This document shows positions 5,326-50,103 of a stretch of 50,103 nucleotides of DNA, piece after piece. The notes under the pieces were generated by a model. The model had not been told where the DNA came from, searched no databases, and saw nothing but the letters and a program-made list of their open reading frames with translations. The position numbers and the translations under genes are program-made. Source of the DNA: Sulfurimonas crateris (GTDB taxonomy: Bacteria; Campylobacterota; Campylobacteria; Campylobacterales; Sulfurimonadaceae); contig CAMCYC010000013.1 of NCBI GenBank assembly GCA_945883795.1, forward strand, positions 1-50,103, read 5' to 3'. The first letter of the stretch is position 1; each line of letters opens with the position of its first letter.

Positions 5326-6252
5326 ATGGCAGAAAAATTTAGACTTGTAACTAGAAGTGATATGGATGGTTTAGTGTGTGCAGTTATATTAAAACAACTT
5401 AATTTAATCGATGAAATTACATTTGTGCATCCTAAAGATATGCAAGATGGAACAATCAATATAACTTCAAACGACATTATCACAAATCTTCCTTATGTAG
5501 CACAAGCGCATTTAGTGTTTGACCATCATGAGAGTGAAACAATCAGAAATAAAAAAGCAGATAATCATATTATTGTAGCAGATGCTCCAAGTGCTGCAAG
5601 AGTTGTTTATGATTATTACGGTGGTGCACAAAAACTTCCAAATATTAAAGAAGACATGATGATTGCTGTTGATAAAGCAGATTCTGCACAGTTTACTATC
5701 GATGATATATTAAATCCAAAAGGATGGGAACTTCTTAGTTTTCTCATGGACTCAAGAACTGGACTTGGAAGATTTAGAGAATTTACAGTATCCAACTATC
5801 AACTTATGATGAATCTTATTGATTACTGTATAAATCATACTATCGAAGAAATTATGCAACTTCCAGATATTGTTGAAAGAGTTGAACTTTTTAATAAATA
5901 TGCAGATGATTTTAAAGCACAAGTAGTGAGATGTTCTACTATTTATGACAATCTTATAGTTCTTGATTTAAGAAACGAAGAGATTATCTATCCTGGAAAC
6001 CGTTTTATGATTTATGCACTTCATCCTGAAACCAATATATCTATCCATGTTTTATGGGGATTTCAAAAACAAAATACTGTGTTTGCAACTGGAAAATCAA
6101 TTGTAAATAGAAGTTCAAATACAAACATTGGTGAATTAATGCTTAAATATGGTGGTGGCGGTCATAATGCTGCTGGAACATGCCAAATAGCAAATGAAAA
6201 AGCTGAAGCTGTTTTAAAAGAATTAGCAACAATTATCACTCAAGAGGGATAA
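5326..6252 (+). CDS. DHH-family phosphoesterase (exopolyphosphatase/NrnA-like superfamily)
   Basis: Metal-dependent phosphoesterase of the DHH/DHHA1 superfamily, 308 residues. Metal-binding motifs are seen at SDMDG (11-15) and FDHHES (65-70; Asp66, His67, His68). The C-terminal substrate-binding GGGGHNAAGTC motif is near 274-284. Members hydrolyse polyphosphate, pAp, nanoRNA or cyclic dinucleotides, and the substrate cannot be chosen from sequence alone. It is a single gene ending in a clear terminator. A polyphosphate link with the PPK2 gene elsewhere in the window is possible but unproven. Confidence 0.85.
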   Translation: MAEKFRLVTRSDMDGLVCAVILKQLNLIDEITFVHPKDMQDGTINITSNDIITNLPYVAQAHLVFDHHESETIRNKKADNHIIVADAPSAARVVYDYYGGAQKLPNIKEDMMIAVDKADSAQFTIDDILNPKGWELLSFLMDSRTGLGRFREFTVSNYQLMMNLIDYCINHTIEEIMQLPDIVERVELFNKYADDFKAQVVRCSTIYDNLIVLDLRNEEIIYPGNRFMIYALHPETNISIHVLWGFQKQNTVFATGKSIVNRSSNTNIGELMLKYGGGGHNAAGTCQIANEKAEAVLKELATIITQEG

Positions 6253-48131: not shown

Positions 48132-48249
48132 ACCCACATTCATCATGTGCTTCCTTGAAAGTCCATAAAATAGGGCTTTTCAGGAAGTTATGTAGTGTAG
48201 ATAAACCCCAGAAAATAGGGCTTTAAAATTTCATATGATGAATGTGGGT
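48132..48249. mobile_element. MITE copy 1 (118 bp, ACCCACATTCATCA terminal inverted repeats)
   Basis: The element starts ACCCACATTCATCATG and ends CATATGATGAATGTGGGT, giving inverted ends of at least 14 bp. It is flanked by AAAA on both sides, consistent with a 4-bp target duplication. It has no coding capacity. Inside are two copies of AAAATAGGGCTTT. A second copy lies at 49849-49976. Confidence 0.75.
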
Positions 48250-48513: not shown

Positions 48514-49401
48514 TAAAAAATAACTTATAAAAAACAAATTTTTTAACTCTATAAGAGAACGATATTTGCTTATGTACACACAAATTCTTAGAATAAAAGG
48601 ATTAAAGAGATGCAATATAGCGCAAAAGTAGTGGACCATTTGGGATTAATAGCTGGCATGGTCGAAGAACTGGGAATTGTAGAAACAATTGATAAGGGTG
48701 CGACTTGTTAGATAGTGAAAAGCTATCTTGTTATCAATCATAAAATTGATAATAAACTAATTACTTGAAGAGTAGAATGATAGGGTAACGCCTTGAAATG
48801 CTCTCTCTGATACTACGGATAGCGGTAATCTTCGTTAAAAGAGAACTGTTATAAGCCCGTTGAAGTCGGCTAAGAGGATACCCTAACTCATACTTGTGTA
48901 TGAAAGGAAATGCGAACCAGAGGTGGTCGAGTATCTGATAGGTCGGGAGTCTATAAAATAACTATGATGAGAATGTGCTAAGCACTGACGAATCTCCGAA
49001 TGTACGGTTCTAAACAATTAATATACAGAAATGTATATACTACTTAAAGTAGGGTGAGAGTGGATGAGTAAATATCCTTGTTATGAAAATCCATATAATG
49101 TTACAGGCACTATCAAACTCACAGGACTAGAGGAAACATCTAAGGTTATATGGAAAGATAAAGTAATTGGAACAAGGTAAGCTTAGAATATGGAGCTTTA
49201 ACGAGCTATGAAGTATTGGGATATATAAATTCGCAAGATAGTAAAATCTCTTAATCTAAGTGAAAGTGAAGCCACTACCGCTGATAGCTTTTGTAATGAG
49301 AGAAGGAGGAAAGGGCTTTAGTCGAATTTATTTGACACAAATAACATAAAACTAAATATCAAAGATTCGAGTAAGACTAAAAGAGGCGAAATTCAGCAAT
49401 G

Positions 49402-49454
49402 AAAGGAGACCGACTTTGAGTAAATCAGAGAACCCAAAGAAGCAAAACTGCTAG
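49402..49454 (+). pseudogene. remnant start of the intron-encoded maturase ORF
   Basis: AAAGGAG (49402-49408) followed seven bases later by TTG at 49416 and the codons LSKSENPKKQNC before TAG. Group II introns begin their maturase/reverse transcriptase ORF in domain IV with just such a ribosome site. The lysine/asparagine-rich start fits an IEP N-terminus, so the rest has likely been deleted (inference). Confidence 0.4.
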
Positions 49455-49521
49455 TAATCTGTAACTAAGGGTGCTTTGTATTTATTAGGTTATGTGTTAG
49501 ACAGTTAAATAAATCCGATGG

Positions 49522-49558
49522 AACGCCGTGTGCGGTGAAAGTCGCACGCACGGTGTGA
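49522..49558 (+). ncRNA. group II intron domain V catalytic hairpin
   Basis: The hairpin begins AACGCCGTGTGCGGTGAAAG and returns with TCGCACGCACGGTG. It has a GAAA tetraloop, a two-base bulge and a CGC-type catalytic triad, the hallmarks of domain V. Stem pairing looks intact, so the ribozyme core may still be active in trans. Confidence 0.85.
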
Positions 49559-49770
49559 ATGGGGGGAAAAGTTGGAGATTGCATCAAAGATTTACCTATC
49601 CATATCGATACCGCAAGACACAGATAAACGCCATTTGACTATTGGGCAAGTTGTTAAAGCACTTATTAGGTTCCTTCTAAAAAAGTGTGGGTAATCATCA
49701 ACCTAAATGTTCCTAAATTTGTCATTAACTAAAGTAAAGTTACAGTCAATACCTTAGCCAAAAAATATCC

Positions 49771-50103
49771 CTAAGCAGCCTCCTGAGACGGATGAATAGC
49801 CCCAAGATTGGCAATTTTAGAAAAAACCTTCTGAATTAAATATTCATTACCCACATTCATCATGTGCTTCCTTGAAAGTCCATAAAATAGGGCTTTTTAT
49901 GAAGTTATGTAGTGTAGATAAACCCCAGAAAAGCCCAAAAAATAGGGCTTTAAAATTTCATGTGATGAATGTGGGTCATTAGCTAAATTCGGAACTAATT
50001 TAAATACCTCAGTGACATATTTAAGCCCATGATATCGAGCTTTTAAATCAAGAACACTCATCTCTTTCATCTCAGGATTATTACGCAAAGCATGAGAAAA
50101 ATT
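49771..50103 (-). pseudogene. unidentified gene, 3' part, interrupted by MITE copy 2
   Basis: Read from the right edge the protein runs NFSHALRNNPEMKEMSVLDL, KARYHGLKYVTEVFKLVPNL, AN, then is broken by the MITE at 49849-49976. Removing the MITE and one copy of its 4-bp duplication gives AN-EYLIQKVFSKIANLGAIHP then SQEAA and stop at 49771, with the frame kept. In the present sequence the MITE encodes a readthrough to a premature stop at 49897. The family is not recognised, and the gene continues beyond the window. Confidence 0.65.
49849..49976. mobile_element. MITE copy 2 (128 bp) inserted in a gene
   Basis: Same ends as copy 1 (ACCCACATTCATCATG ... CATGTGATGAATGTGGGT). The direct repeats CATT at 49845-49848 and 49977-49980 are the target duplication, confirmed by the frame restoration of the interrupted gene. 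Compared with copy 1 it has about 10 extra bases creating an AAGCCC/GGGCTT hairpin, so the two copies have diverged. It encodes no protein. Confidence 0.85.

Follow-up and report, generated by a model that had tools for sequence, protein, structure and literature searches.

The window, that is, the whole 50,103-nt stretch of Sulfurimonas crateris DNA analysed here, carries on its plus strand, at 48698-49605, a group IIB intron of 908 nt (GTGCGAC...CCATAT) without an open reading frame (ORF), as indicated by Rfam matches, exon-intron pairings and relatives. Its sequence is best read as that of an intron which very probably lost its maturase by deletion and is most likely stranded and decaying, with splicing competence retained in principle. 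Such an intron appears ordinary in kind, and a little unusual in being stranded in a draft genome in which no RT is found.

Intron identity and core structure

The intron begins with GTGCGAC at 48698 and ends with ...CCTATCCATAT at 49605, so that both the GUGYG 5' end and the AY 3' end are present (GTGCG...AT). Its DI core (48752-48957, plus strand) matches Rfam family RF02004 (group-II-D1D4-5) with 167.1 bits (E 8.5e-38), and DV together with DVI (49521-49605, plus strand) matches RF00029 with 60.4 bits (E 1.7e-9); both scores exceed the Rfam gathering cut-offs by far, and the RF00029 match stops exactly at the 3' end of the intron. The two models leave the rest of the intron uncovered, and a permissive Rfam rescan added only a weak DV match from another family. 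When DV-DVI was folded without constraints, the branch-point A at 49598, eight bases before the 3' end, came out bulged. No ORF of at least 60 aa occurs inside the intron, and no frame for an intron-encoded protein is left.

The intron retains nearly all the base pairs that the DI model predicts, and DV, the DVI bulge and EBS1-3 are likewise intact. The DIVa region is kept in sequence, but its fold is no better than that of shuffled sequences (z -1.5 and -0.2), and a minimum-free-energy fold of the whole intron did not recover the group II fold. Taken at the level of sequence, 48698-49605 is a genuine group II intron whose ribozyme core looks splicing-competent. The first-pass annotation had already recognized an ORF-less group II intron with a bulged A eight bases before its end, and both points hold; the covariance-model search, set beforehand as the check that could refute the identification, returned matches to the DI and DV-DVI models.

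Exon-intron pairings and intron ends

The ends were examined in 11 related introns inserted at different host sites, whose alignment columns were compared with exon offsets with no positions preset. The top pair of this unsupervised scan was EBS1 (CCTTGT, 49076-49081, plus strand) with IBS1 (ATAAGG, 48692-48697, plus strand), the six bases that close the 5' exon. EBS1 and IBS1 are paired at 66 of 66 positions across the 11 introns (shuffled mean 30.9; 0 of 50,000 shuffles as good), and EBS2 (CAATT, 49015-49019, plus strand) and IBS2 (AATTG, 48687-48691, plus strand), which covary, are paired at 49 of 55 (shuffled mean 26.4; no shuffle as good), the pair counts being firmer than the shuffle numbers, which ignore kinship among the introns. 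A seventh EBS1/IBS1 pair is also possible in the window copy. The 3' exon opens with IBS3 (C at 49606), and the single column of the scan that pairs best with this base is 49130 (EBS3, G, plus strand), correct in 10 of the 11 introns. In IIB introns EBS3 lies outside the EBS1 loop, whereas IIA introns use the base adjoining EBS1; the intron is assigned to subgroup IIB because its third pairing site stands apart from EBS1.

Together, these EBS/IBS pairings fix both predicted intron ends to the base. They agree with the end of the RF00029 match. Full-length related introns share the same 5' and 3' ends, where differing ends had been named beforehand as a second possible refutation, and the boundaries 48698 and 49605 and the EBS1/IBS1 pairing proposed in the first-pass annotation are retained. 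In the relatives, too, the joined exons form an open frame through the junction, as in the helicase gene that hosts the Aliarcobacter copy.

Full-length relatives and loss of the maturase

Genomes of the class hold full-length introns of about 2.7 kb that are 76-78% identical to the window copy and encode a protein of 614-620 aa with RVT_1 and HNH domains, which scores above the cut-off of the group II RT-maturase model. A scan with the DV sequence retrieved 71 stretches from species genomes and 3 from viral contigs. Among the 38 loci with a 5' part upstream of DV, a maturase match was found in 34 and none in 4 (L060, L061, L066 and L121), of which L061 alone was checked end to end. Within the genus, close DNA relatives amounted to nothing but short DV matches in four other genomes. 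One locus (L037, genome G256) carries a truncated 5' intron copy at 1342-1571, about 2.4 kb upstream of a full-length copy (3715), and the two copies have nearly the same 5' exon.

The closest relative is L074 (DSAK01000175.1, an Epsilonproteobacteria MAG), an intron of 2728 nt that is 85% identical and contains a maturase ORF of about 617 aa. The 85% identity holds over intron positions 1-752, corresponding to 1-753 of L074, and 739-908, corresponding to 2558-2728, which leaves the window copy short of about 1.82 kb of maturase ORF. The deletion junction (49436-49449, plus strand; AAAGAAGCAAAACT) aligns to both sides of the stretch missing relative to L074, and this overlap of 14 bases lies within a short imperfect direct repeat. 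Such a double alignment is as expected of a deletion at a short imperfect repeat, and it is from the repeat that we infer the deletion mechanism. Remnants of the maturase gene can be recognized by alignment to the full-length relatives: a ribosome-binding site (AAGGAG, 49403-49408, plus strand) and a start region (49416-49451, plus strand) comprising TTG and 11 codons, (M)SKSENPKKQNC, followed by a stop. After these, the last maturase codons leave traces in another frame. The own RT-maturase ORF that characterizes mobile (retrohoming) group II introns is thus absent, having been lost. The first-pass annotation correctly called the intron ORF-less, but its account of a compact intron was incomplete: the window intron is, judging from these alignments, a deletion derivative of a standard maturase-bearing intron rather than a distinct compact type.

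The host transposase

The host gene encodes an IS1634-type transposase (DUF4277). Its first 29 codons and one further nucleotide make up the 5' exon (48610-48697, plus strand), the intron interrupting the frame in phase 1, and the 3' exon (49606-49667, plus strand) continues with codons 30-50, after which homology to intact transposases stops. Joining the flanks gives MQYSAKVVDHLGLIAGMVEELGIVETIDK-A-IPQDTDKRHLTIGQVVKALI and restores the transposase frame. The restoration is real, but as the independent evidence for the boundaries that it had been taken to be it is weak, because a fixed 50-codon frame also stays open in about 9.5% of random excisions of comparable length. Frame restoration alone should therefore be used with caution, and it is the covariation of exon-intron pairings that fixes the ends. 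Stronger than the open frame, among the sequence comparisons, is the gap-free alignment of the junction to the DUF4277 profile (Pfam; E 3.2e-12, profile 3-47) and to intact IS1634-type transposases such as that in genome G304 (57% of 42 residues). The earlier placement of the intron in an IS1634-type transposase therefore stands; left out of it was that the host is a 5' fragment ending after codon 50.

Past codon 50 homology is gone and the frame closes eight codons later, while intact relatives run on; the host transposase thus is, as far as its sequence tells, a dead and incomplete 5' fragment, and with the coding sequence truncated at this point no functional gene can be regained by splicing. 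No further IS1634-type N-terminus was found in the genome, and among 135 congeners and 397 class genomes no empty IS1634 site came closer than 42-54% protein identity. A MITE-like repeat of about 127 bp lies on both sides of the intron-bearing fragment (window positions 48132-48248 and 49849-49975); it has terminal inverted repeats (CCCACATTCATCA...) and 14 matches in the genome, several of them 100% identical. In G304, on the minus strand of L151 (1051-3110), a group II-like RT ORF of 480 aa directly precedes the start of an IS1634-type transposase ORF.

Search for a maturase partner

The genome is a draft of 2.41 Mb in 126 contigs with a completeness of 99.85%, and drafts can lose repeated intron copies. 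No second copy of the window intron is present in these contigs. RVT_1 gave no match in the draft at E<=1, while the controls were detected, and a search with a maturase alignment likewise gave none; the same search finds RTs in 14 of the 135 congeners. The first-pass annotation had taken the intron for a satellite that depends on a related intron at another genomic site and had proposed a search for full-length relatives with an intron-encoded protein. That search came back empty in the 126-contig draft, and the satellite claim is not borne out by a 99.85%-complete assembly with neither a second copy nor an RT, subject to the caveat that attaches to drafts.

Genome-wide, three DV-DVI motifs were detected, namely that of the window intron and two on contig C89. 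The latter belong to a pair of group II introns that are of a different type (RF02012), arranged head to tail on the minus strand (G000:C89, L011, 5996-5004). The first ends at 5850, its upstream part being cut off by the contig end, and the second is complete (846 nt, 5849 to 5004), has no ORF and gives no RT match. A maturase may sit in the missing part of the first, contig-end-cut intron. At G000:C79:6464-6489, 26 bases are identical to the 3' end of a C89 intron, and the surrounding stretch that was examined contains no DV match. In a congener locus (L168, G097:C184, 1750-2439), an RT frame with a VRYADDF motif extends to a DV-DVI related to the C89 introns, which suggests that a maturase of the C89 type may exist in a congener.

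Alternative explanations and proposed history

One alternative is that the intron is an active satellite, the short copy splicing and moving with a maturase supplied in trans by a full-length relative in the same genome. ORF-less bacterial introns are rare and nearly always co-reside with related maturase-bearing introns (PMC4424553), and domain IV still opens with the ribosome-binding site and the start region; but with one copy, no RT by either RVT_1 or maturase alignment and three DV-DVI motifs in the genome, this is quite unlikely. It is also unlikely that the intron acts as a ribozyme in its own right, splicing efficiently with no need of a maturase, like C.te.I1 of Clostridium tetani. 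Here the intact landmarks, the assembly without an RT and the existence of a precedent (PMC3919590) are set against a host gene that is a dead fragment, in which selection for splicing is not visible.

The same dead host gene and the lack of a maturase would fit a relic that has already lost splicing, and EBS/IBS pairs and DV could last a while unselected. The parts that were tested are undecayed, however, with DV, the DVI bulge, EBS1-3 and nearly all DI pairs intact, so that a splicing-dead relic is possible but doubtful. Misassembly of a full-length copy, with the maturase ORF dropped in error, is very improbable: the draft is in 126 contigs and the junction lies within a short repeat, but some 14 imperfect shared bases are as a rule too short to mislead an assembler, both flanks have diverged by 15% from L074, and the contigs hold no RT fragment elsewhere.

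As no maturase is found and the host transposase is truncated, the intron is most likely a stranded, decaying element. Its history may be outlined as follows. An intron of the maturase-bearing Campylobacterota lineage would have entered an IS1634-type transposase gene, probably by retrohoming while a maturase was at hand, with the pairings pointing to a target selected through base pairing of EBS1, EBS2 and EBS3. Either before or after this insertion, the domain IV maturase ORF would have been lost in the deletion of about 1.82 kb. The remaining ribozyme could in principle excise itself, either inefficiently on its own or helped by a maturase in trans, and could not move by itself. Since the intact parent, the precise deletion and a draft genome without an RT are all available for comparison, the step from mobile to stranded is testable: does the ribozyme splice alone, and is it rescued by the maturase of the parent?

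Comparison with known systems

Full-length group IIB introns encoding an RT-HNH protein are present in several Campylobacterota, namely L074, an Aliarcobacter MAG (L089/G409), a Sulfurospirillum MAG (L098), G360 and G256. The window intron shares with them its ends, DI, EBS/IBS positions and DV-DVI, at 76-85% nucleotide identity; they differ in being 2.7 kb long, in encoding a maturase of 614-620 aa, which the window copy has lost, and in residing in other host genes. The ORF-less intron L061 (753 nt, Nitrospiraceae MAG) resembles the window intron in its DV subgroup, end motifs and lack of a maturase, but only short stretches align and EBS2/IBS2 is unsupported in L061.

In a survey later than the review PMC4424553, 888 of 13,041 introns were without a maturase (PMC8919778). 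C.te.I1 of C. tetani was, at the time of review, the sole known exception to the co-residence of ORF-less introns with a related maturase (PMC4424553; PMC3919590). Like the window intron, this group II intron lacks an ORF, and its genome has no group II RT (PMC3919590). Its splicing has been demonstrated, it shows no trace of a maturase, and it has been linked to the alternative splicing of a surface-layer gene (PMC3919590), whereas the window intron, known from sequence alone, has a maturase remnant and a dead host gene. There is a small chance that the window intron joins C.te.I1 as the second natural example in bacteria of group II introns that persist and splice where the genome has no group II RT at all; if so, it would be one in which a recent loss of the maturase is visible and the parent is known to the base. 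As it stands, the window intron adds to the known ORF-less group II introns, and the draft without an RT is its only unusual side.
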